Shown here in pieces: positions 1 to 40,186 of a stretch of DNA of 41,032 nt. Position numbers and translations under genes: made by a program. Numbering within the stretch: position 1 is the first letter of the stretch; each line of letters begins with the position of its first letter. The notes beneath the pieces were generated by a model. It was not told the origin of the DNA. It did not search any database and saw only the letters and a program-made list of their open reading frames with translations. This stretch comes from a virus, in the IMG/VR virus record IMGVR_UViG_3300043399_000031, positions 1 through 41,032 of that record, one strand, 5' to 3'.

Positions 1-6
1 GTCATA

Positions 7-23
7 GTTGTCAAAAAGACAAC
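7..23. repeat. Inverted repeat, 6-bp arms
   Basis: GTTGTC and GACAAC flank AAAAA. This small hairpin directly abuts the larger palindrome at 22-49. Read on the minus strand, the larger palindrome is followed by TGTCTTTTTG, so the pair could act as a leftward terminator. It could also be an operator. Its role is not known. Confidence 0.5.
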
Positions 24-860: not shown

Positions 861-1514
861 TTACTCTTTCGGCTCGGTGAAGTCAGGCTTGATGCTGTGG
901 ATGACGTCGAGGATGTCAGCGGCCAGTTCGCCGCGTCCGATAGTCCGACTGTCGGCCAACGCTTTTGCAAGCGCTTTCACGACGGTGTCGAGACTCGCGA
1001 CGTGGGTCTTCGAGTTTTTGGCTTCCCGGGCGGCGGCCTGCTTCTCGGCGAGCTTTTCGGCTGCAGCCTGCAGCGCCTTTGGGATTGCCTTGCCGGCGGC
1101 CTGCAGCGCTTCGACTTTCGCCTCGGTGCCGTGCAGGGTAGACGTCCATGGGACATGTCGCTCAACCGCAAAGGCCAGACCATTGCGGTATGCCTTGCCG
1201 GTCGACTCGGTCAAGTCGCCAGCTGCGACGGCCTTGTCGATGATGTCGGCCAGCAAGTCTTTCATCTCGCCGGCGTCGAGCCCGGCGGCCCGGGCCGCGT
1301 CGATGGCCATGTTGAAGGCGGTAGCCCGAAGGCCATCCGCTTTCTTTTCGCCGGCCCGCTGCACTTCGGCAGCCTCGTGGATCCGCGCCAAAGTGTCGGC
1401 GCTAATGCGCTCGGCCGCTGTAGCTTCGGCTTTCGCCACGGTCGCGGCGGCTTTCGCAGTCGCGGTGGCGACCATGCTTGCGACGGCGGCGGAAGTGTTT
1501 TTACGTGTTGCCAT
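861..1514 (-). CDS. Alanine-rich conserved phage protein, unknown function
   Basis: 217 residues from ATG 1514, with AGGA about nine bases upstream. The product is rich in Ala, Lys and Glu. The first 45 residues are a low-complexity Ala/Thr helix, and residues about 140-175 look like a second long helix with heptad character (EALQAAGKAIPKALQAAAEK). No catalytic motif is evident. It is the first gene of the short leftward unit, preceded by the boxA/hairpin leader at 1554-1599. Its position next to the putative origin would suit an early host-interaction or replication role, but this is only inference. Confidence 0.7.
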   Translation of the reverse strand: MATRKNTSAAVASMVATATAKAAATVAKAEATAAERISADTLARIHEAAEVQRAGEKKADGLRATAFNMAIDAARAAGLDAGEMKDLLADIIDKAVAAGDLTESTGKAYRNGLAFAVERHVPWTSTLHGTEAKVEALQAAGKAIPKALQAAAEKLAEKQAAAREAKNSKTHVASLDTVVKALAKALADSRTIGRGELAADILDVIHSIKPDFTEPKE

Positions 1515-1548: not shown

Positions 1549-1589
1549 CAATCCATACGCATTGCGTATGTGGTGTAGCGCATGGATTG
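1549..1589 (-). promoter_or_regulatory. Nested inverted repeats, boxB-like hairpin
   Basis: The outer arms CAATCCAT/ATGGATTG (1549-1556, 1582-1589) enclose an inner perfect repeat CATACGC-att-GCGTATG (1554-1570). In the leftward transcript the inner hairpin forms downstream of boxA, the same order as boxA-boxB in lambda nut sites. The repeats could instead be an operator. Confidence 0.5.
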
Positions 1590-1599
1590 TTAAAGAGCG
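1588..1599 (-). promoter_or_regulatory. boxA antitermination motif (CGCTCTTTAACA)
   Basis: The minus strand reads CGCTCTTTAACA, identical to the bacterial boxA consensus bound by NusB/NusE. It sits in the leader of the gene at 861-1514, about 75 bases before its start. With the downstream hairpin it makes a nut-like site. Confidence 0.6.
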
Positions 1600-1715: not shown

Positions 1716-1853
1716 TGTGGATAACTTATGTGGATAACCATGTAGACCAGTGTGGATAACCCAACCAAATGTGGACAACCCTGTGGATAAGCTGTGGATT
1801 TCCTGTGGACAACTCGACCCGACGCCGGATTCCTGTGGATATCCTGTGGACAA
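1716..1853. other. Putative replication origin: nine DnaA-box-like 9-mers
   Basis: Nine copies of TGTGGAnnn lie in 138 bases, all in the same orientation. Four are exact TGTGGATAA (1716, 1729, 1751, 1782), the complement of the DnaA consensus TTATCCACA. Three are TGTGGACAA (1770, 1804, 1845), and one each is TGTGGATTT (1793) and TGTGGATAT (1834). They lie between divergent operons. This arrangement is typical of DnaA-dependent origins; use by the phage is inferred. The short open frames across this stretch are by-products of the repeats. Confidence 0.65.
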
Positions 1854-1943
1854 CCCCACCCTACCCCGACCCCCCGATTCTGGCTTTGGAGTCCCAGCTA
1901 CTTTTGTACTGAGCGCAACTCCCACGACCACAAAAACCTGAGA

Positions 1944-1956
1944 TAACTTGACATAT
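1944..1956 (+). promoter_or_regulatory. TAACTTGACATAT repeat, copy 1
   Basis: A 13-base direct repeat containing a perfect -35 hexamer TTGACA, present three times upstream of the terminase genes. No good -10 lies 16-18 bases downstream of this copy. Confidence 0.5.
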
Positions 1957-1984
1957 ATAGACTTCATCTAGGGAACCCACCCCC

Positions 1985-1997
1985 TAACTTGACATAT
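1985..1997 (+). promoter_or_regulatory. TAACTTGACATAT repeat, copy 2
   Basis: Identical 13-mer, 41 bases after copy 1 and preceded by CCCC like copy 3. Eighteen bases after TTGACA is TACGGC, a poor -10. A late promoter using a modified or phage factor would fit. Confidence 0.5.
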
Positions 1998-2034
1998 AGG
2001 CCCTAGAAAAAATACGGCACACCAACCCAACCCC

Positions 2035-2047
2035 TAACTTGACATAT
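2035..2047 (+). promoter_or_regulatory. TAACTTGACATAT repeat, copy 3
   Basis: Identical 13-mer, 50 bases after copy 2 and 73 bases upstream of the TerS start. An in-frame TTG inside this repeat (2039) could extend TerS but would place the promoter-like repeat in the coding region, so it is rejected as a start. Confidence 0.5.
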
Positions 2048-2119
2048 CCACCCCCTTACGAAAAAACACGCCTACCCAAAAAAATATGGCACACTACGGT
2101 CTACGCATTAAGGCAGCGC

Positions 2120-2659
2120 ATGTACACGCCTCAGATTGATACCGACATACCCCTTGCGGACTTTCCGCCTACCTTTGCTGACCTCACAGCACGGGTGAAT
2201 GCTGCGTTCGCGGCTTTGACTGCCCTGCAGGCAGATGTCGTGGTATCAGATGAGGATCAGGAAGCAGCTCGTGCCGTCATGACCGGCGATCGAAAACCTA
2301 CCGACACACTACTGTCGTCCCCCGGCGCCATTGTGCAGATCAAGGCGATCCTGTCGGAGTACGACAAGGCGGTAGTTGAGTCCGCTGCGCAGATCCGGAC
2401 GTTCGTGACGAACAAGCTCCTGCTGGAATCCGACTCTCCAGACCCGCGTATCCGTATCAAGGCTCTCGAACTGCTGGGCAAGATCAGTGACGTCGGTCTG
2501 TTCACGGAGAAAACCGAGATCACCATGCGCCATAGGCCCACCGAAGAGCTCGAACAGATGCTCCGGGAGCGCCTCACCCGCACTCTGGACGCCGAGGAGG
2601 TGCAGATTCAGCCCTACTCACGCCCCCTGCCCGACGTAACCCACGCCGATGCGCAGTAA
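2120..2659 (+). CDS. terS: Terminase small subunit
   Basis: 179 residues from ATG 2120, preceded by AAGG. TerS proteins bind the packaging site and regulate the large subunit. The central part is helical with the segment IRIKALELLGKISDVGLFTEK (about residues 113-133), which I recognise from phage TerS proteins of this kind. The C-terminal tail is acidic, then proline-rich. The gene overlaps the start of the large terminase gene by 11 bases, the usual pairing. There is no sign of truncation. Confidence 0.75.
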   Translation: MYTPQIDTDIPLADFPPTFADLTARVNAAFAALTALQADVVVSDEDQEAARAVMTGDRKPTDTLLSSPGAIVQIKAILSEYDKAVVESAAQIRTFVTNKLLLESDSPDPRIRIKALELLGKISDVGLFTEKTEITMRHRPTEELEQMLRERLTRTLDAEEVQIQPYSRPLPDVTHADAQ

Positions 2660-5165
2660 ATCCGAGATCGACGCCCTGCTGCGCGGCCTCTCCCCTGCCG
2701 AGATGGCCGATATGCTCGTCTTGCTGGACGAATTGGACGAGCGCAAGCGCGTCACGATGGCCCAGAACGACTTTTTGGCCTTCATAGGTGCCGTGGATGC
2801 CAACTACAAGTTCGGAGCGCACCTGAAGCGCCTCGGGAGCCTCCTGATGGGGGTCGAAATCGGCTCCCACGACCGTATTGCGGTGTCCATGGCCCCTCGA
2901 TTCGGCAAGTCGCAGATGATTTCCATCTACTACCCCGCGTGGTACCTTGGAAAACACCCGGATCACAAGGTGATTGTGGCTTCGCACACTGCCGATCTTG
3001 CTGTGGACATGGCGCGTAAGGTGCGTAACCTCATGCAGACCGATGAGTACCGTCGGATCTTCCCAGATGTGGCTATTGCAGCCGATGCTAAAGCCGCAGG
3101 TAAGTGGAACACGAACAAGGGTGGTGAATACTATGCTACTGGCGTTGGCGGGGCTCTTGCTGGTCGCGGCGGCCACCTTATCATCGTGGATGACCCTCTG
3201 TCCGAGCAGGACATCAAATCGGGAAATACGGATAGCCTTGACACTACTTACGAGTGGTTTCGTGCTGGCTTGCGTACACGTCTGATGCCGGAAGGCCGCA
3301 TCTGCATCCTACATACACGCTGGCATCAGCGGGATCTCATCGGTCGCCTGACCAAAGACGGCGCCATGAATGAGGACGGCGACCAGTACGAGATCTTCGA
3401 GTTCCCGGCGATCCTGAACGAGGGTACTGAGACCGAGAAGTCTCTCTGGCCTGAGCAGTGGCCGCTCGATGCGCTGCTACGGACCAAGGCGTCCATGCCG
3501 GCGTGGCAGTGGAACGCCCAGTACCAGCAGAACCCAACCGCCCAAGAGTCTGCCATCATCAAGAAGGACTGGATTCAGTGGTGGCCGAAAGAAGACCCGC
3601 CACCATGCGACTTCCTCGTGCAGTCGTTCGACACGGCGCTCACCACCAAGGAGCGGTCGGACTACAGCGTGTGCCAGACATGGGGCGTGTTCAAGAACGA
3701 CGACGGCATCGACAACGCCATCCTGCTCAACTGCGTAAAGGGCAAGTGGGAGTTCCCCGAGCTCAAAGCCATGGCCCTTGAACAGTACCAAGACTGGCAG
3801 CCCGACAGCGTGATCGTGGAAGCCAAGGCATCCGGCCAGCCGCTGATCGACGAGATGCGACGCTCGGGCCTGTTCGTGCAGGACTTCAGCCCGGGCAAGG
3901 GTCAGGACAAGATCGCCCGGGTTAACGCCGTGAGTGACATGTTCGCCTCGGGGCAGGTGTGGTTCCCTGAGACGCGATGGGCGACTGAGGTAGTCGAGGA
4001 GATACTGGCCTTTCCGGCGGGAGAGCACGACGATCAATGCTTTGTGGCGGGTACGCAGATATACATGGCCAGTGGCATAACGAAGCGTATTGATGACGTG
4101 CGTGTTGGTGATTTGGTGGCGACGCCGTACGGCCCTAAGCAAGTGACCGCAGTAGCCTGTACTGGAGTGAAGCCCGTTGTTGAGGCCGCAGGGCTTACAG
4201 GGACTCCTAACCACCCGGTAGCAACCCTGCAAGGGTGGGTTCCGCTCGGTGAGATTACACGAGATAGCGCTATAATCCATGTGTCTAACTTCACGGAGGC
4301 ACTATGGCTTTTCCAGCAAAACCCGGAACCCGCGTCGAGTCTATCATCTTCGATGGGTACAAGTACAACCGATACCCCGACGCCCCCAGCAGGACGCACC
4401 GCGTCTATTACACCCGCAGCGGGGGAAAGTCTTTGCATCGGGCGATTTGGGAGTTCCACAATGGGGCCATCCCAAAAGGATGGCACGTCCACCACAAGGA
4501 TGGAGACCCAAACAACAACAGCCTTGACAACCTCGAATGCCTGCCGCAGAAAGCCCATGCGGCTGAACACCGAGACGAAATGTCCGTGCGAAGCAGCTCC
4601 CCGGAGCACCTTGCAAAGCTGGATTCAATACGCTCAAAAGCTGCTGAGTGGCATCGCTCAGAAGAGGGGCGTGCTTGGCATAGAGAGCACGCTCAGAAGA
4701 CTCTCAGCAAAGTTTGGGGCAAGCCGAAACCTGTGTACGAGTACCAATGCACCTGCACGCAGTGCGGAGCCTCGTTTGTTTCAAACTCCAAGAAAGCAAC
4801 CTACTGCGGGAAAGATTGCTGGAATGCCCACCAGCGAGAAGTCAAGCGTGCTAGAAGCCTTGCAGCGAGAACCGGGTACGTTTGCCAACGGTGTGGGAGT
4901 GGGTTTACCGCTGCCACTACACGACAAAAATTCTGCAGCGAGAAGTGTAAGTACGACCACCACAACGCCAAGAAGCGCGGCGGTGTACAACCTAAGTGTG
5001 GCTGACGCAGAGTGCTACTTTGCAAACGGCGTCCTAGTGCACAACTGTGACGCCATGACGTTGGCCCTTGCGCGGGTCCGCAAAGGTGGCATCTTGCGCC
5101 TCAACAACGACTACGACGACAATCCGATGTACAACTTGCCGAGTGGCAAGAGGAGTTACTACTGA
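2649..5165 (+). CDS. terL: Terminase large subunit precursor containing an intein
   Basis: 838 residues as translated; 502 after removal of an intein (residues 464-799). It is the ATPase-nuclease motor that packages DNA into the prohead. Visible motifs are Walker A-like APRFGKS (82-88), Walker B HLIIVDD (176-182), and the RNase H-fold nuclease acids D328 (SFDTAL), E391 (VIVEAKASG) and the HDD of the third motif (460-462). The third motif HDDQ/CDA is split exactly by the intein, so the unspliced protein should lack a complete nuclease site. The start overlaps TerS by 11 bases, and the stop overlaps the portal ATG by one. Confidence 0.95.
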   Translation: MRSKSEIDALLRGLSPAEMADMLVLLDELDERKRVTMAQNDFLAFIGAVDANYKFGAHLKRLGSLLMGVEIGSHDRIAVSMAPRFGKSQMISIYYPAWYLGKHPDHKVIVASHTADLAVDMARKVRNLMQTDEYRRIFPDVAIAADAKAAGKWNTNKGGEYYATGVGGALAGRGGHLIIVDDPLSEQDIKSGNTDSLDTTYEWFRAGLRTRLMPEGRICILHTRWHQRDLIGRLTKDGAMNEDGDQYEIFEFPAILNEGTETEKSLWPEQWPLDALLRTKASMPAWQWNAQYQQNPTAQESAIIKKDWIQWWPKEDPPPCDFLVQSFDTALTTKERSDYSVCQTWGVFKNDDGIDNAILLNCVKGKWEFPELKAMALEQYQDWQPDSVIVEAKASGQPLIDEMRRSGLFVQDFSPGKGQDKIARVNAVSDMFASGQVWFPETRWATEVVEEILAFPAGEHDDQCFVAGTQIYMASGITKRIDDVRVGDLVATPYGPKQVTAVACTGVKPVVEAAGLTGTPNHPVATLQGWVPLGEITRDSAIIHVSNFTEALWLFQQNPEPASSLSSSMGTSTTDTPTPPAGRTASITPAAGESLCIGRFGSSTMGPSQKDGTSTTRMETQTTTALTTSNACRRKPMRLNTETKCPCEAAPRSTLQSWIQYAQKLLSGIAQKRGVLGIESTLRRLSAKFGASRNLCTSTNAPARSAEPRLFQTPRKQPTAGKIAGMPTSEKSSVLEALQREPGTFANGVGVGLPLPLHDKNSAARSVSTTTTTPRSAAVYNLSVADAECYFANGVLVHNCDAMTLALARVRKGGILRLNNDYDDNPMYNLPSGKRSYY
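4038..5045 (+). other. Intein inserted in TerL nuclease motif III
   Basis: 336 residues. The splicing motifs are all visible: Cys1 in CFVAGTQIYM (block A), TPNH at intein residues 56-59 (block B, with the conserved T and H), and a C-terminal block ending VLVHN (penultimate His, terminal Asn) followed by Cys+1 of the extein. This is the pattern of a class 1 intein with Cys at both junctions. Only about the first 89 and last 21 residues look like a splicing domain. The roughly 225 residues between are Ser/Thr/Pro/Arg-rich and resemble no endonuclease, because the endonuclease lies in another frame (4304-5005). Confidence 0.9.
4304..5005 (+). CDS. HNH homing endonuclease nested out of frame in the intein
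   Basis: 233 residues, starting at ATG 4304 after a strong ribosome site (GGAGG, five bases away). It is read in a different frame from TerL and lies wholly inside the intein. The N-terminal half is an HNH_3-type nuclease (HVHHKDGDPNNNSLDNLE, about residues 61-78). The C-terminal half has two zinc-ribbon-like units, C151/C154...C168/C172 and C194/C197...C211/C215, probably DNA-binding. The stop falls about seven codons into the last intein block. It is presumably made as a separate protein that mobilises the intein. Amino-acid composition and motifs show that this frame, not the TerL frame, is the conserved one here. Confidence 0.88.
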   Translation: MAFPAKPGTRVESIIFDGYKYNRYPDAPSRTHRVYYTRSGGKSLHRAIWEFHNGAIPKGWHVHHKDGDPNNNSLDNLECLPQKAHAAEHRDEMSVRSSSPEHLAKLDSIRSKAAEWHRSEEGRAWHREHAQKTLSKVWGKPKPVYEYQCTCTQCGASFVSNSKKATYCGKDCWNAHQREVKRARSLAARTGYVCQRCGSGFTAATTRQKFCSEKCKYDHHNAKKRGGVQPKCG

Positions 5166-25387: not shown

Positions 25388-26061
25388 CCGCTACACAGCC
25401 TATCAGCGAACGACTACTGCCGGCTTCTGCGCCGCGACTGCCTACTGCGCAGCCCGAGTACCGCATGGAGGACTTGGAGCAGATACTCCGAATCCTCCGG
25501 CTGTACTTCAAGCAGTTGGACAACAACGTACTGTCGTTGTTCAGTCCGAACGGTGGCAGGTTCTTGAGTTCTCCGTACGGGGCGTTTTCGTCTACGCAGA
25601 CTCAGGTGCCTGCGGCAATCAATACGCCGCAGCGGGTCACCATTAACACCACCGACTACGCTAACGACACCTACTTCGTTGCTGGGGATGGTATCCACGT
25701 AACTCGATCTGGAATCTACAACGTCCAGTTCAGTGTTCAGGCTACGAATGCTGACGTGCAGGATCACGACTTTGCGATATGGCTTCGCAGGGGCACTGGC
25801 TCTGGTGTTGCTACGGACATTCCATATTCCTCCAGCGTAGCTACGGTTCCTAGTCTTCACGGAGGTAACCCAGGCTACCTAGTGGTGGCGGCGAACTTCT
25901 TTGTTGATCTCGTCGCTAATGACTACATTGAGTTCTGGTGGTCGGCCAATAGTGTGCAGGTGTCGCTCAATACTCTACCTCCGATTACAACGCCGTTTGT
26001 AAACCCTGGAGCGCCGTCTGTTGTGGTCACGTTGTCGTTTGTGTCTGCACTTCCTACCTGA
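25384..26061 (+). CDS. Jelly-roll (C1q/TNF-like) virion protein
   Basis: 225 residues, ATGA overlap with the nozzle gene. Residues 28-55 form a coiled coil (MEDLEQILRILRLYFKQLDNNVL) suited to trimer formation. The C-terminal 150 residues look like a TNF/C1q jelly-roll (GIHVTRSGIYNVQFSVQATNAD, FAIWLRRGT, YLVVAANFFVDLVANDYIEFWWS). A trimeric fibre tip or tail knob is likely; receptor binding is inferred. Confidence 0.6.
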   Translation: MTATQPISERLLPASAPRLPTAQPEYRMEDLEQILRILRLYFKQLDNNVLSLFSPNGGRFLSSPYGAFSSTQTQVPAAINTPQRVTINTTDYANDTYFVAGDGIHVTRSGIYNVQFSVQATNADVQDHDFAIWLRRGTGSGVATDIPYSSSVATVPSLHGGNPGYLVVAANFFVDLVANDYIEFWWSANSVQVSLNTLPPITTPFVNPGAPSVVVTLSFVSALPT

Positions 26062-26090
26062 TAAACTTCAAACAATACTGAGAGGCACCC

Positions 26091-27527
26091 ATGAGCCTGA
26101 AAAAAGCCGCTGAACACCTAGCTTCCAAGGGCCGTGGGCCTGATTCCATGCTGGTCCATATGGCTCCGTCCGAAGTGGCGGGGCTGCAGTCTCTTGCCAA
26201 AGCCGCTGGTGGCTCCCTGACGATCCACCCTGAGACTGGACTGCCGGAGGCGGGGTTCCTGCAAAGCATCCTTCCGACCATCATCGGTGCCGGTCTCGCG
26301 GCTACGGGCGTCGGTCTCCCTCTGGCGATGGCGGGTGGCGCTCTGGCCGGCGCAGCGACCAACAAAGAAAACCCCATGATGGGGGCGATTTCTGGCGGCC
26401 TTGGTGCTTACGGCGGCGCGGGTCTGGCGCAAGGGCTTGGCGCGCTGGGTACGCAGGCTGCTGGTACCGCCGCAGGTACGGCAGCTACCCAAGCTGCAGG
26501 CTCCGCTGCTACCGGGTCTACCGGCACGCTGGCGACTACTGCCGCTGAAGAGGCCGCGCGGCAGCAGGCCATGGAGCAGTCCCTGTCCGCCGCAGCTAAG
26601 GGCGCCGCTGCGCCACCCCCCACCACGTGGGCTGGCGTGAAGGAAGGCGCAGCGCAGTTGGCCAATGCTGAGCCCGGCGCGTGGGGCAAGTTCGTCGGAC
26701 AGGCTGCGACCAAGGACGCGGCGGCGACGGGCATGGGGGGTCTTGGAGGGCTGGCTCAGACGGGCATGGCGGCTGCGGCTCCCGTGCTGATGGCCACGCC
26801 TGAAGGCCCCGAGGCGCCTGACTACGGACCCATGCCTGAGTACGAGTTCGACTGGAACAGTGTCTACGCGCCGGGCGGCGGGTTCACGCGCAAAATGGCC
26901 GCGGGCGGCGAGACTGCTCCGAAGATGAGCGGCGCCAGTGCGCAGGCGATGGACTACCTGATGGGTCGAGCCTCGGTGTCTCCGCAGGCGCTCGCCGTTC
27001 AACAGCGTGTGGCTGCCGCGCCTAAAGTCGTACCGACCACTACCAAGGCAACCCTCCCCGCATCGAAGGGGGATGCCCCGGCGTACACGTTCGATCCGAT
27101 GACCAAGCAGTTCACTGCAGCACCAGTGGTAGCTACGCCATCCCCCTTCGCGGCATCCGAACCGCAAGAGTATGACTATCGCTTCGCGCAGGGCGGCCAG
27201 CTCCAAGCAGGCGGGTTCGTCGTGCCAGCGGATGTGGTCAGCGCACTGGGCAACGGCAGCTCGTCGGCTGGGCTTGAGACCTTGGCTCGTAAGTTTGGCG
27301 CAAGGCCGATCAAGGGTCCGGGCGACGGCATGAGTGACTCGATCCCCACGTCTATCGACGGCAGGCAGAAAGCTCGTGTGGCCCGGGACGAGGCCTACGT
27401 GCCGCCGGACCGAGTGCAGGCTGCCGGGGGAGCCAAGAAACTGTACGCCATGATGGATCGAATCCGGTCTCAGGCGCACGGCAAGACATCGCAGCAGCGC
27501 AAGATCAACCCGGATAGGCTGGTCTGA
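26091..27527 (+). CDS. Ejection (internal virion) protein with glycine-zipper segment
   Basis: 478 residues. N-terminal HLASKGRGPDSMLVHMAPSEVAGLQSLAKAAGGSLTIHPETGLPEAGFL is a motif of this family. Residues about 57-120 are Gly/Ala-rich with GxxxG spacing and could insert in membranes. The C-terminal part (GGFVVPADVVSALGNGSSSAGLETL...GPGDGMSDSIPTSIDG...RVARDEAYVPPDRV) is conserved-looking. AAGGE and FAQGGQL copies of the GG motif are present. It is first of a run of ejection proteins, comparable by place to P22 gp7/gp20. Confidence 0.6.
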   Translation: MSLKKAAEHLASKGRGPDSMLVHMAPSEVAGLQSLAKAAGGSLTIHPETGLPEAGFLQSILPTIIGAGLAATGVGLPLAMAGGALAGAATNKENPMMGAISGGLGAYGGAGLAQGLGALGTQAAGTAAGTAATQAAGSAATGSTGTLATTAAEEAARQQAMEQSLSAAAKGAAAPPPTTWAGVKEGAAQLANAEPGAWGKFVGQAATKDAAATGMGGLGGLAQTGMAAAAPVLMATPEGPEAPDYGPMPEYEFDWNSVYAPGGGFTRKMAAGGETAPKMSGASAQAMDYLMGRASVSPQALAVQQRVAAAPKVVPTTTKATLPASKGDAPAYTFDPMTKQFTAAPVVATPSPFAASEPQEYDYRFAQGGQLQAGGFVVPADVVSALGNGSSSAGLETLARKFGARPIKGPGDGMSDSIPTSIDGRQKARVARDEAYVPPDRVQAAGGAKKLYAMMDRIRSQAHGKTSQQRKINPDRLV

Positions 27528-35795: not shown

Positions 35796-36028
35796 CGAAG
35801 GCGCCAGACCCGGGCGCCGTAGATGCCGAACTCGCAACGAGCACGCACTTCGAGCTCCATGTCGAGGTGCTGCTCTGCGGGTATCAGGGCGGTGTAAACC
35901 TGCTTGGGCGTAGCCGTGGTAGGGATGAAGAAGCTGCCGCCCCTCGGCAGCTCTTCCCATGGGATGTAGTACTCAGCGCCGAAGACGTTGAGTACCCTGA
36001 TCTCACTCGGTAGCGGGTCCGCCTTCAT
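35792..36028 (-). CDS. Small conserved protein ending the early operon
   Basis: 78 residues from ATG 36028, overlapping the primase end by 26 bases. IRVLNVFGAEYYIPWEELPRGGSFFIPTTATPKQVYTAL, then HLDMELEVRARCEFGIYGARVWR. I recognise the pattern from other phages but know no function; the end resembles small DNA- or RNA-contacting proteins (inference). Its stop TAG (35792-35794) overlaps the TAA of the convergent giant gene. Confidence 0.65.
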   Translation of the reverse strand: MKADPLPSEIRVLNVFGAEYYIPWEELPRGGSFFIPTTATPKQVYTALIPAEQHLDMELEVRARCEFGIYGARVWRLR

Positions 36029-38906
36029 CGTAGAGGTCCGGGTTTGGCATGTCGAGGCCGAGGGCTTCGCCCTTGAAGACGTAGCAGCGTGTTGCCGGCG
36101 CACTCATCGAGCCCACTGCGCCTGCTGCAATGCGTCGGACCAGCGTCAGCTCCTTGGCGCCCGGCAGGTGGATCAGCGCACCGGACTCGGCGAACGTCTG
36201 CATGCTGGCCTTGAAGTCGACACGTCGCTCGACGAAGTACGCCCGCAGGTCCGATGCGATGATGGTGAGCTCGTCTGTGTTGGGCTCATAGCGCATCTTG
36301 AGGGCCCCTTTAGGACTCATAGTCGGCGCTGTCGGCAGGCCATCGCCGCGCTTGGCGTTGATGACCATGGCGTTGCCGATGTTGTCGCTGATGTACTTGG
36401 CCAGCGTCTCCAATGCCAGCGTCTCGGTCGAACCCACGGTCTCGCGGTTGGACTCCTTGACCGTCGAGATGGCCTTGAGGGCGTACTCATAGATACGATC
36501 TTCGTCCAGCGACCACAGGCGCATCACGTTGCCGATCCGGGCTACGGACATCGCCACGGCCAGCACCGCAGAGTAGAAGCGATCGCTGCGCTCCAGCTTG
36601 GCTTCCCGGTCGATCCTGATCTGGTTCTCCTGCAGGAGCTCGGCCACGGATTCCCGGTGGGTCACGAGATACTGCGCCAGCACGGGACCTGCCACACCGT
36701 AGTGCTTGGCCAGCGAGCCGAACAGGGCATCGGTCTCTTCCTTGGAGATGTCGTCACCCGGGGCCTTGATGTGCAGGTCGATCACACGCTTGAGCTCCCC
36801 CTCCACCGCCGAGCGGTGAGAGGCCAGCGCGTCTGCCATGACCGCGTTGGACGATGTGACCGTGAACGAGCACCACGTGGTGTTGTTATTGCGCAACTTG
36901 TTGCTCTGTGCCTCCATGCGGTGCGGAGCGCGACCCGACGTGCTGCCATACACCAGAGCCGATAGCTGTTCGCCCGTGGCGTTGGTGAGCTCGTCGACCG
37001 TCATGCAGATGCTGTTGAGCGTGCCCAGACGGTGAAAGCGAGCGGCGGCGGTGTCCTTGGCCTCCATGAGCAACTCGGTCGGGTGCCCGAAGATCGAGTT
37101 GATCGCCATCTGCACGGTGGTCTTGCCGGTGCCTGACTTGTTGCTGACAAGGTTGAGCACAGCGCCGCGCACTTGGGTGCTGTTGAGGAGCTGCAGGAGA
37201 GGGGAGCCGGCACCGACCAGAAACGCGAAGGCATGCGCCTCCATGCCCGGGCGGTTGTAGAAGTTGATGATGCTCGTCCACTCGTCGAGCGAACCCTTGG
37301 CGTGAAACAGGGGGGCCATCTGGCGGGTGCCTGAGGCGGCAGGGGCGAGCTTGATGCCGTGTGGCGTGTACTCCAGTTCCCCCACCACGAAGGTGCCTTC
37401 GGAGGTCCAACCCATCTGGCTGCGAGTGCGGCTAGAAGCGGAAGCCGACTGCAGCTTCTTAACAGAAGCAGCGAGGTATCCCATGATGTGATCCAGTTGT
37501 TTTCCGTATGCGATCACACCGTGCTTGACGAGCGTGTCGCGGAGTTTGTCTTTGGCAAAGAGCGCAACGGATGTTGCGTGGAAACGACGGACGCCGTCGT
37601 GCGGCAGGTGCAGGTTGATACCCACCAGTTCGCCGTCACCGTCGTTCTCGTCCGAGTCGTAGAAGCGCGACGTGACATAGAGGTCTTGGTCGTAGATGCA
37701 CAGGGGCGGCAGTTCGTTGCCGTCCTCGTCCTTGACCTTGGCGTAGACCCCACCAGTCTTGCCCCTGAAGTAGGGGAACGGGTACTGCGGGATCGTGATC
37801 TGGGCTGTGGTCGCCACCTCTTCGTCGTCAGGGGTGATCACCGCCTCGACTTGGTAGCTGCCGTCCTCCGCCACGGGGGCCTCCTCGACGAAGGCACCGA
37901 GCTGGATCGGGCTGGTGATCTTGAGCTTGCAGCTTTGGCACAGGGCGGGGCTGTTGTCGCGGTACCACGCGCACTTGTAGGGCTTACCGTCAAGGCGCTG
38001 CGCCTTCTCGACCGTGTTGTCGAACGTGTACTCTGGGTGCGGCTTGGATAGCTTGTGGATGGCAGTCTCACCGTCCACGCAGTTCCATGCGATCGACAGG
38101 GCTGCACGCCAAAGGGGCTCCTCCAGCTCAGCGGCGTCGACGACTGCATGCTTGATCTGGGCGCAACCCTTGTCGGCCACGCTGAGCTTGACGAGCTTGA
38201 CGAACTTGGCCTTGGGCAGGTCGGCCTTGGCCATCGCCTTGGTGGCCTCGTCGACACCGAACGCTTTGGCGGCACTGAGGTCGACCGGAGCTGCAGGGGT
38301 GGATACCGACGCGGGTAGCAGCGATCGGAACCGCGAGAACGCCATGGGGCCGGAGCCCAGCGTAGCGATCTGCACGGGGCGCGGAGCCTCTTGCTTGTAG
38401 TTGTGAGTGCCGGGCACGCGCAAGATGCGGGCGGCGTCTGCCGTGACGGTCAGGTCGATGCCCAGCTTGTGCTGCACGCACAGGGCCTTGAATGCCTTGG
38501 CGGCAGGTAGCCAATCGGCTACGGGTACGTCGTCAATGAATGGCCAGTAAGCATGAATGCCGCCGCCAGAGTTGACGACGATGGGGTCCGGGAATCCGGT
38601 AGCGCCAATGAAGGCACGCAGCGCTTGCGCAGCGTCGAATATCTCGGGGTAGGGTTTGCCGGGTCCGCAGTCGATGTCGATGAAGACAGCACGAAGCGCC
38701 TCGGCACAGTCGGTCTTTCGAGAGTTGGAGGAGAACGAGGCCAGAGCGAAGTAGGCATCACTGCCACCATCGTCTGCGTCCTGCGCAATCTTCTCAACTT
38801 CCTCAATCGACTCAGCGAATGTTTGCTTGACCTTGCCACCTCTGATGGACACCGCACAGTAGGTGCCTGTCGAGGGGAGGACAGACTCAAGGAAGAGAGA
38901 ACTCAC
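36003..38906 (-). CDS. PrimPol-DUF927 primase-helicase
   Basis: 967 residues from GTG 38906 (the adjacent ATG is followed at once by TGA). The N-terminal part resembles an archaeo-eukaryotic-type primase: FIDIDCG (D77, D79), SGGGIHAYW with H118, and RVPGTHNYK (near 165). A Cys cluster CAWYRDNSPALCQSC follows near 330. The C-terminal half is DUF927-like, an ATPase with Walker A SNKSGTGKTT near residue 590 and Walker B-like ICMTVDEL near 637. It would prime and unwind DNA in replication. The only recognisable replication enzyme in the window; the polymerase is not seen. Confidence 0.75.
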   Translation of the reverse strand: MSSLFLESVLPSTGTYCAVSIRGGKVKQTFAESIEEVEKIAQDADDGGSDAYFALASFSSNSRKTDCAEALRAVFIDIDCGPGKPYPEIFDAAQALRAFIGATGFPDPIVVNSGGGIHAYWPFIDDVPVADWLPAAKAFKALCVQHKLGIDLTVTADAARILRVPGTHNYKQEAPRPVQIATLGSGPMAFSRFRSLLPASVSTPAAPVDLSAAKAFGVDEATKAMAKADLPKAKFVKLVKLSVADKGCAQIKHAVVDAAELEEPLWRAALSIAWNCVDGETAIHKLSKPHPEYTFDNTVEKAQRLDGKPYKCAWYRDNSPALCQSCKLKITSPIQLGAFVEEAPVAEDGSYQVEAVITPDDEEVATTAQITIPQYPFPYFRGKTGGVYAKVKDEDGNELPPLCIYDQDLYVTSRFYDSDENDGDGELVGINLHLPHDGVRRFHATSVALFAKDKLRDTLVKHGVIAYGKQLDHIMGYLAASVKKLQSASASSRTRSQMGWTSEGTFVVGELEYTPHGIKLAPAASGTRQMAPLFHAKGSLDEWTSIINFYNRPGMEAHAFAFLVGAGSPLLQLLNSTQVRGAVLNLVSNKSGTGKTTVQMAINSIFGHPTELLMEAKDTAAARFHRLGTLNSICMTVDELTNATGEQLSALVYGSTSGRAPHRMEAQSNKLRNNNTTWCSFTVTSSNAVMADALASHRSAVEGELKRVIDLHIKAPGDDISKEETDALFGSLAKHYGVAGPVLAQYLVTHRESVAELLQENQIRIDREAKLERSDRFYSAVLAVAMSVARIGNVMRLWSLDEDRIYEYALKAISTVKESNRETVGSTETLALETLAKYISDNIGNAMVINAKRGDGLPTAPTMSPKGALKMRYEPNTDELTIIASDLRAYFVERRVDFKASMQTFAESGALIHLPGAKELTLVRRIAAGAVGSMSAPATRCYVFKGEALGLDMPNPDLYDEGGPATE

Positions 38907-39012: not shown

Positions 39013-39273
39013 TTATGCGCGCAGCTCCTCCGGTGAAGCAAGGAGGTTGCGCATCTTCTCCTCGTGCCTCGGGCGAGGGCGCGATGCCCCCACGAACCAC
39101 GAGTAGACGGTCTGTCTACTGACACAAAAAAGGTCCGCCACCTTCTGCACTGAGACATCCGTCTCGATGCAAACCTTGGCGAACCTCGAAGCGAGGGAGG
39201 AGTCCTCCCTGCTCAGAACTGCCGACCGGAGATCGACAGAGTACCCGTGGCGCTTATCAAGCCTCGTCGTCAT
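39013..39273 (-). CDS. Helix-turn-helix DNA-binding protein
   Basis: 86 residues from ATG 39273 (an in-frame ATG at 39285 is possible). DVSVQKVADLFCVSRQTVYSWFVGASRPRPRHEEKM (about 39-74) is a clear helix-turn-helix of the XRE/transposase type, with recognition helix SRQTVYSWF. The start overlaps the end of the upstream SSB-like gene. Likely an early regulator, perhaps binding the control region at 1515-2119, or a replication accessory. Confidence 0.75.
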   Translation of the reverse strand: MTTRLDKRHGYSVDLRSAVLSREDSSLASRFAKVCIETDVSVQKVADLFCVSRQTVYSWFVGASRPRPRHEEKMRNLLASPEELRA

Positions 39274-40186
39274 CGCTCCACGCATCCAGAACAGCGCTCA
39301 CATCCTTGGGGGCTACCACGGCTGCGGGCTTCTTGGCTTGGCGCTTGACCGGCTCCTCGATCGCCTCATCGCTGGCGGCAGGTGCCACCTCGCGAGCTGC
39401 AACGGCAGCGCCGTCGAACAGCGGCTTGGCCGGCGTGGCAGGTTTGGCTGCGGGCGCCGAACCGTCCTTGGACTTGACGACCATCTTGAACTCGACCGCA
39501 CGCAGAGCGTCTTCCGACTGGGCAACGCTCTTGGACATCTCCCACTCCTCGCGGGTCAGCGGGCGGACAGCGCGGAACTTCAGCACCGGCACAGCCTCGC
39601 TGGTGTCGAAGCGAGCCTCGGTCACCACACCACCCATCGGGACGCCGTGGCCGGCGAGGAACTTGGCGTAGGCTTGCAGGGGCATCTTGTCGCCTTCGGG
39701 CTTGCCGAAGATCGACTTGGCCGGGAGCTGCAGGCGGTACACGTTGCCCTCGATGTCGTTCTCCAGCGCGACGGCCAGACGGCGGCTGTAGCGGCAAGCA
39801 CGGCTGGTGCCCTCACCCGAACCCGCGATGTTCTGCGGGCACTGTGCACAGGTGCTGCACTGGCGCTGGTCGGCAGGCACTTCGTCATTGGGCTTCACGC
39901 CATCCTCAGACCAGCAGGTCGGTTGGATGTCCTTACCTTCTTCGTACTTCTGCGCGAAGAACGTGCGGTTGGTGTGCGGGTTAGCTGCAATCACGATGAA
40001 GTTCATAGCACGATCTTCGTTACGTGCTACTTCTTCGCCCCCGACAATCATGCGCCACACTCCACCTTTAATGGAGATTTGTTTCCCAGAGGTACCGCCA
40101 GCCAGACTTTTGGTCAGATCGTCGGCCTCGCGCAGATAGTCGGGGAGTGCTACGTTGCCTTGCTTGAACAGAGAGATATTGGACAT
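39257..40186 (-). CDS. Putative single-stranded DNA-binding protein
   Basis: 309 residues. N-terminal 60-170 beta-rich region (ISIKGGVWRMIVGGEEVARN...MNFIVIAANPHTNRTFFAQKY), a Cys cluster (CWSEDG, QCSTCAQC, then C) likely binding zinc, then RLQLPAKSIFG, an Ala/Pro/Lys linker (about 235-290) and a very acidic end AWSDDDEA. The flexible linker plus acidic tail is typical of phage and bacterial SSB proteins. In the replication operon, directly upstream of the HTH and primase genes. The assignment is by layout. Confidence 0.5.
   Translation of the reverse strand: MSNISLFKQGNVALPDYLREADDLTKSLAGGTSGKQISIKGGVWRMIVGGEEVARNEDRAMNFIVIAANPHTNRTFFAQKYEEGKDIQPTCWSEDGVKPNDEVPADQRQCSTCAQCPQNIAGSGEGTSRACRYSRRLAVALENDIEGNVYRLQLPAKSIFGKPEGDKMPLQAYAKFLAGHGVPMGGVVTEARFDTSEAVPVLKFRAVRPLTREEWEMSKSVAQSEDALRAVEFKMVVKSKDGSAPAAKPATPAKPLFDGAAVAAREVAPAASDEAIEEPVKRQAKKPAAVVAPKDVSAVLDAWSDDDEA

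Follow-up and report, generated by a model that had tools for sequence, protein, structure and literature searches.

Nine same-direction DnaA-type boxes lie between divergent operons

Why should a phage carry a dense run of sites for the initiator of its host? This question is raised by a 41,032-nucleotide stretch of viral DNA (IMG/VR record IMGVR_UViG_3300043399_000031; hereafter, the window), in which the initial annotation had pointed to nine same-direction DnaA-type boxes within 138 bases. Our analysis confirmed that number and direction, with four of the boxes being exact copies of TTATCCACA, four having one mismatch, and one having two. The boxes are located in the intergenic region 1515-2119, between a minus-strand gene on the left and the plus-strand terS on the right, i.e., between divergent operons as had been stated. 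The features of this part of the window are as follows.

861..1514, minus strand: alanine-rich protein of 217 aa without a known family, encoded by the first gene of the leftward operon; 50-73% identity in both array-bearing relatives
1716..1853, minus strand: array of nine same-direction DnaA-type boxes (TTATCCACA on the minus strand; spacings of 13, 22, 19, 12, 11, 11, 30, and 11 bp)
1716..1724, minus strand: box 1, exact TTATCCACA
1729..1737, minus strand: box 2, exact TTATCCACA
1751..1759, minus strand: box 3, exact TTATCCACA
1770..1778, minus strand: box 4, TTGTCCACA, one mismatch
1782..1790, minus strand: box 5, exact TTATCCACA
1793..1801, minus strand: box 6, AAATCCACA, two mismatches
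1804..1812, minus strand: box 7, TTGTCCACA, one mismatch
1834..1842, minus strand: box 8, ATATCCACA, one mismatch
1845..1853, minus strand: box 9, TTGTCCACA, one mismatch
2120..2659, plus strand: small terminase gene terS, first gene of the rightward operon; called by position and synteny, with no family match
2649..5165, plus strand: large terminase TerL, with an intein-like Hint insert after residue 463

The TGTGGA cores start, on the plus strand, at 1716, 1729, 1751, 1770, 1782, 1793, 1804, 1834, and 1845. Eight same-strand boxes with at most one mismatch fall within 138 bp, compared with a maximum of two in 5,000 dinucleotide shuffles of 1515-2119 and a maximum of one per 138 bp in 60 shuffles of the whole window. 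As in oriC-type regions, the DnaA boxes thus cluster far beyond chance, and they do so in the main control region of a lytic-type aquatic phage.

Boxes and spacing are conserved in the closest relatives

A search with the small terminase yielded 45 loci, among which L001 (contig G001, 64 kb) and L002 (contig G002, 47 kb) contain all nine boxes in the same order and at the same place, with spacings that differ from those of the window by no more than 1 bp. Selection acts on the boxes and their geometry, i.e., on the array as an ordered unit, because the box cores are 98-100% identical (54/54, 53/54, and 53/54 in the three genome pairs) while the spacers within the array are 35-58% identical; the flanks reach 36-51% in the same genomes. 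The initial annotation would have taken scattered, unconserved boxes in relatives as evidence against its reading; in these closest two the boxes are neither scattered nor unconserved.

Given the identity of the boxes, their agreement with DnaA specificity, and the selection acting on them, host DnaA very probably binds the array. A different protein recognizing TGTGGA, such as a phage repressor or initiator, might bind the repeats in its place, and this 6-mer is indeed the best-kept part of the boxes, with the last three positions varying. We nevertheless regard such a protein as very unlikely: the mix of exact TTATCCACA and TTGTCCACA boxes fits DnaA specificity, and the same box recurs in unrelated phages among which we found no common protein.

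The DnaA domain (Pfam PF00308) was not found in the window or in G001, G002, G007, G015, and G017, and therefore, any DnaA at the array would be that of the host, with the phage family bringing its own polymerase and primase-helicase. It had been remarked that the window has a PrimPol-DUF927 primase but no other initiator. The remark is correct but of little weight, given that the window covers only part of the genome: as judged by mapping against G001, ~23 kb are missing between its two ends. In that 64-kb relative, the additional ~23 kb encode a family A DNA polymerase, which seems to contain an intein insert, as well as an SNF2-type helicase, a PD-(D/E)XK nuclease, and ThyX. The same stretch has genes for an AAA ATPase and a DUF2201 metallopeptidase/VWA product (G001, 35.4-39.5 kb; L168), a MoxR/VWA-like pair in the phage early region. 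The window itself carries the primase and a conserved protein beside it.

36003..38906, minus strand: phage-encoded PrimPol/DUF927 primase-helicase
39257..40186, minus strand: 309-aa protein next to the primase, possibly ssDNA binding; 85-86% identity in the genome of L001 and 68% in that of L007

The array is an accessory of some lineages

With the aim of following the array through the phage family, we searched with a TerL profile and took 80 viral loci out of at least 600 matching stretches, along with 59 from genome bins. Among the matches listed, 122 loci had enough upstream sequence for a box census (1.03 Mb). Clusters of at least three boxes were present in six of them (L001, L002, L160, L382, L385, and L379), each time upstream of terS or terL, and in L137, on the 66-kb contig G053, three exact boxes directly adjoin the terminase genes. 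Box direction is uniform in the window, L001, and L002 and mixed in L382 and L385, where the boxes lie in the gap upstream of terS. All five of these place the boxes in the divergent gap, whereas those of L160 lie behind the left gene.

Parsimony on the TerL tree (125 rows) requires six changes of the array trait. The next TerL relatives (L014, L016, L006, and L007) have no boxes, and the near-complete relatives G007, G015, and G017 have no array. As far as these genomes can tell, the array is an accessory of some lineages that has been repeatedly gained or lost, because it is absent from G007, G015, and G017 although G007 shares the primase (58-59%), the polymerase (65%), and neighbouring proteins. 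Indeed, wherever whole genomes could be read, array-less relatives also share the replication genes. An obligatory role of the array as the replication start of the family is ruled out, since most relatives with the same terminases lack it. A search for the host via genome collections returned almost only metagenome bins of mixed taxa and no credible host.

Similar arrays occur beyond the family

Triple exact same-direction boxes, a short distance apart, are present in at least 120 IMG/VR stretches, compared with 9 for the reversed motif. This pattern replaced a first one (CTGTGGA three times, with gaps of 3-5) that was weak evidence, given that its reversed control gave 84 stretches. Contamination by host oriC was also considered and rejected. 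Of 46 records tested (the family genomes and the array-bearing contigs from the first pattern scan), 45 have no DnaA domain and one, of 97 kb, has a weak match; thus, the arrays of these records are not simply misplaced chromosomal origins.

At the nucleotide level, the similarity of 1515-2119 to known phages was limited to a 47-bp microvirus segment, which is likewise a box array. The T7-like Berlinviruses P483, nasanit, and VB_Ship_A7 (E. coli, Shigella) have 6-9 boxes with spacings of mostly 11-12, 22-23, 26, and 34 bp, and phiEap-1 (Eapunavirus) has 5 exact boxes spaced by 21, 22, 30, and 22 bp, ~70 bp from the start of its record. Together, these T7-like arrays share with that of the window 5-9 same-direction boxes at spacings of mostly 11-12, 21-23, and 26-34 bp, whereas they differ in their enterobacterial hosts and gene sets and in their placement, which is either at the genome end or in the interval separating the terminase from the early genes. 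The Arthrobacter phage Tiff81 has 3 exact boxes ~50 bp from its right genome end, followed by a C/G-rich end. Comparable same-direction arrays phased at 11/22 bp are found in Arthrobacter phages and in T7-like phages of E. coli, while T5-like phages have smaller clusters of boxes. Lactococcus phage WRP3 and microviruses also carry box arrays. T7-like phages start replication at their own promoters without DnaA. The capture of DnaA is therefore favoured as the common denominator, because phages with DnaA-free origins bear phased arrays too.

The T5 injection stop signal has been described with DnaA boxes (PMC13250531). BF23, DT57C, and many other T5-like phages have boxes in the left terminal repeat and so share with the window DnaA boxes in the control region of a lytic phage; BF23, an unrelated phage, differs in having just one cluster, of 82 bp with 3 exact boxes, which lies within a large terminal repeat. 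Similar arrays have arisen several times among phages related and unrelated to that of the window, so that phages seem to capture the host initiator repeatedly.

The array as a possible origin, switch, or genome-end element

Just right of the boxes, the intergenic region contains three further features.

1854..1920, strand not assigned: C-rich conserved element (CCCCACCCTACCCCGACCCCCC ... GGAGTCCC ... TACTGAGCGC), abutting the array and retained in box-less relatives
1926..1975, strand not assigned: 50-mer with the lowest stability in the intergenic region and almost the lowest in the window as a whole; may be a promoter or an unwinding element
1944..2048, plus strand: three TAACTTGACATAT copies, starting at 1944, 1985, and 2035

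The array could serve as a DnaA-assisted origin, in which a DnaA filament would open a nearby weak duplex, the PrimPol/DUF927 primase-helicase and the polymerase would load, and forks would proceed outward along both operons. Consistent with this are the location of the array where two transcription arms diverge, the fixed box spacing, the least stable 50-mer only 72 bp past the last box, and a change in the sign of the AT skew at the array in the window, G001, and G002. The weak duplex, however, is strong in the window and weaker and elsewhere in G001 and G002, and promoters look alike. The AT skew tracks gene direction, and the GC skew, proposed as a check for synthesis starting at the array, shows no switch there. 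DnaA-trio runs adjacent to the array or common to the window, G001, and G002 were not found, a single isolated 9-base run being present in the window and another in G001. Given that the array is missing from relatives whose replication genes are the same, and that the origins of array-bearing T7-like phages are known to be independent of DnaA, we consider an origin possible but rather unlikely. Compared with a bacterial oriC-type cluster, the phage array has in common the many clustered boxes, ordered spacing, non-coding location, and possibly a weak duplex nearby; it differs in having neither dnaA/dnaN neighbours nor a conserved DnaA-trio or GC-skew switch, and in its absence from close relatives with the same replication genes.

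A second alternative is a transcription switch, whereby bound DnaA would activate or repress the early leftward and terminase promoters and so tie phage expression to the host DnaA level. It would suit the position between divergent operons and the ordered spacing, and the boxes of BF23 likewise lie between predicted divergent pre-early promoters. We nonetheless judge it unlikely, as the boxes of L160 are behind the left gene rather than between promoters, and no sigma-70-like promoter was found in 1400-2200.

The C-rich element bears on a third possibility, namely that the array abuts a packaging or cut site and that bound DnaA acts on entering or packaged genome ends, as proposed for the T5 injection stop signal (PMC13250531). 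The boxes adjoin terS and this family-wide element, and the 64.8-kb contig G015 ends inside the C-rich element and starts ~210 bp upstream of its terS. A T5-type signal would comprise DnaA boxes with repeats and palindromes near a genome end, in first-step-transfer DNA; boxes and repeats are present here, and one contig ends in the adjacent element. The boxes of Tiff81 by its C/G-rich end and the arrays of phiEap-1 and VB_Ship_A7 at record ends point the same way. Conversely, no sharp peak of contig ends was seen upstream of TerL, and in most family members the C-rich element occurs without boxes, leaving an entry role improbable.

The C-rich element itself is a candidate cos/pac or control site. 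It is clearly kept in L014, L016, and L006 and persists even at 38% TerS identity. As a non-coding element of the form ACCCCACCC..CCCCCC..GGAGTCCC..TACTGAGCGC, it was observed upstream of terS in L006, L008, L009, L014, L016, L018, and L030. Just to its left, the box-less L006, L008, L009, L014, and L016 have, by eye, a TCTAA..TTAGA-type inverted repeat (e.g., TCTAACGATTAGA in L014), perhaps an operator.

Proposed capture of host DnaA in an ordered complex

We propose that the 138-bp array would be a docking site for host DnaA, on which the nine same-direction boxes, 11-13 or 19-30 bp apart (~1-3 helical turns), would be bound by DnaA as one ordered complex. This complex would sit at the divergence point of the early, leftward operon and the rightward operon of terminase and structural genes, and the array would be an accessory of some lineages rather than the core replication origin of the family. 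In a subsequent decoy step, about nine DnaA molecules would be held per phage genome, such that, as phage copies accumulate, the host would run short of DnaA and would start no new chromosome rounds. Taken as a whole, ordered host-DnaA capture with the decoy as its likeliest next step is a tentative reading, to which we would give somewhat less than an even chance. The initial annotation had offered recruitment or titration of the host initiator; of this, DnaA capture is the best-supported part (the boxes are conserved, the spacing is fixed, and no phage DnaA gene was found), whereas the array-less relatives speak against an obligatory origin of the family.

As to what capture achieves, we lean weakly, and with low confidence, toward a decoy rather than help in replication or transcription. 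A decoy is slightly favoured because clustered boxes in non-coding DNA are the sole property common to all of the places and phages, because the array comes and goes without a change of replication genes, and because T7-like phages, with their DnaA-independent origins, carry arrays too. In E. coli, multicopy DNA with extra DnaA boxes titrates DnaA and delays initiation, and there are ~200 DnaA molecules per origin (PMC5835720); a decoy effect would therefore be expected only after phage replication, because one infecting genome offers nine sites. The array resembles the datA/mioC-type titration sites of E. coli in being a box cluster expected to hold many DnaA molecules, but differs in being phage-borne, with nine regularly phased boxes and no conserved IHF-like site. 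Against a decoy, the conserved spacing and place are more than a pure decoy needs, although the location could merely reflect scarce non-coding space. Fixed spacing and a control-region position favour a locally acting ordered complex, as in an origin or promoter switch. Titration and help in starting replication both remain close rivals to accessory, ordered DnaA capture, and more than one of the decoy, origin, switch, and entry roles could apply at once.

Some phage proteins are known to block the factors that initiate host replication, whereas descriptions of DNA arrays that would act likewise are scarce beyond the T5 injection-stop region. Our search of a literature with few subscription papers found no survey of phage DnaA-box arrays. 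We raise, as a doubtful but possible generalization, that host-DnaA capture by ordered, helically phased arrays is a widespread and repeatedly evolved phage strategy, in which DNA decoys rather than proteins act on the initiator; it would hold for microviruses, for phages of Arthrobacter, and for E. coli phages of the T5-like and T7-like kinds as well as for the aquatic family described here. Since the same kind of array is present in E. coli T7-like phages, DnaA binding and decoy, origin, and entry effects are directly testable in a standard host.

Other elements of the locus

Scans for consensus promoters and terminators, Rfam families, and tRNAs gave nothing. IHF-like sites were limited to one-mismatch matches at non-homologous places, and GATC (SeqA/Dam) features were not conserved. 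A viral-contig search for relatives of the 217-aa protein confirmed none.

Many family members have 2-4 lineage-specific, iteron-like direct repeats between the C-rich element and terS (window, 1944-2048; L001, 4762-4881; L007, 4749-4869; L009, 1872-1969; L011, 722-815). TerL inserts, apparent inteins or other, also recur: the TerL proteins of L005 and L008 are 841 and 843 aa long, and those of L010 and L011 are interrupted near residue 222. Low-complexity proteins with long alternating "AARDAAWDAAR"-type repeats were seen in both array-bearing and array-less relatives (L007, 778-1185, minus strand; G001, 25786-26205, minus strand, on the reversed contig).

The leader of the leftward operon contains one more element.

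1587..1598, minus strand: rrn-type boxA-like element GCTCTTTAACAA

This element is exact in G002 and has one base changed in G001, both of which bear the array, and it was not found in the array-less relatives scanned; it suggests Nus-dependent antitermination of the early leftward operon. The early leaders of the Berlinviruses P483 and nasanit also carry a boxA-like element, GCTCTTTAACAAT.
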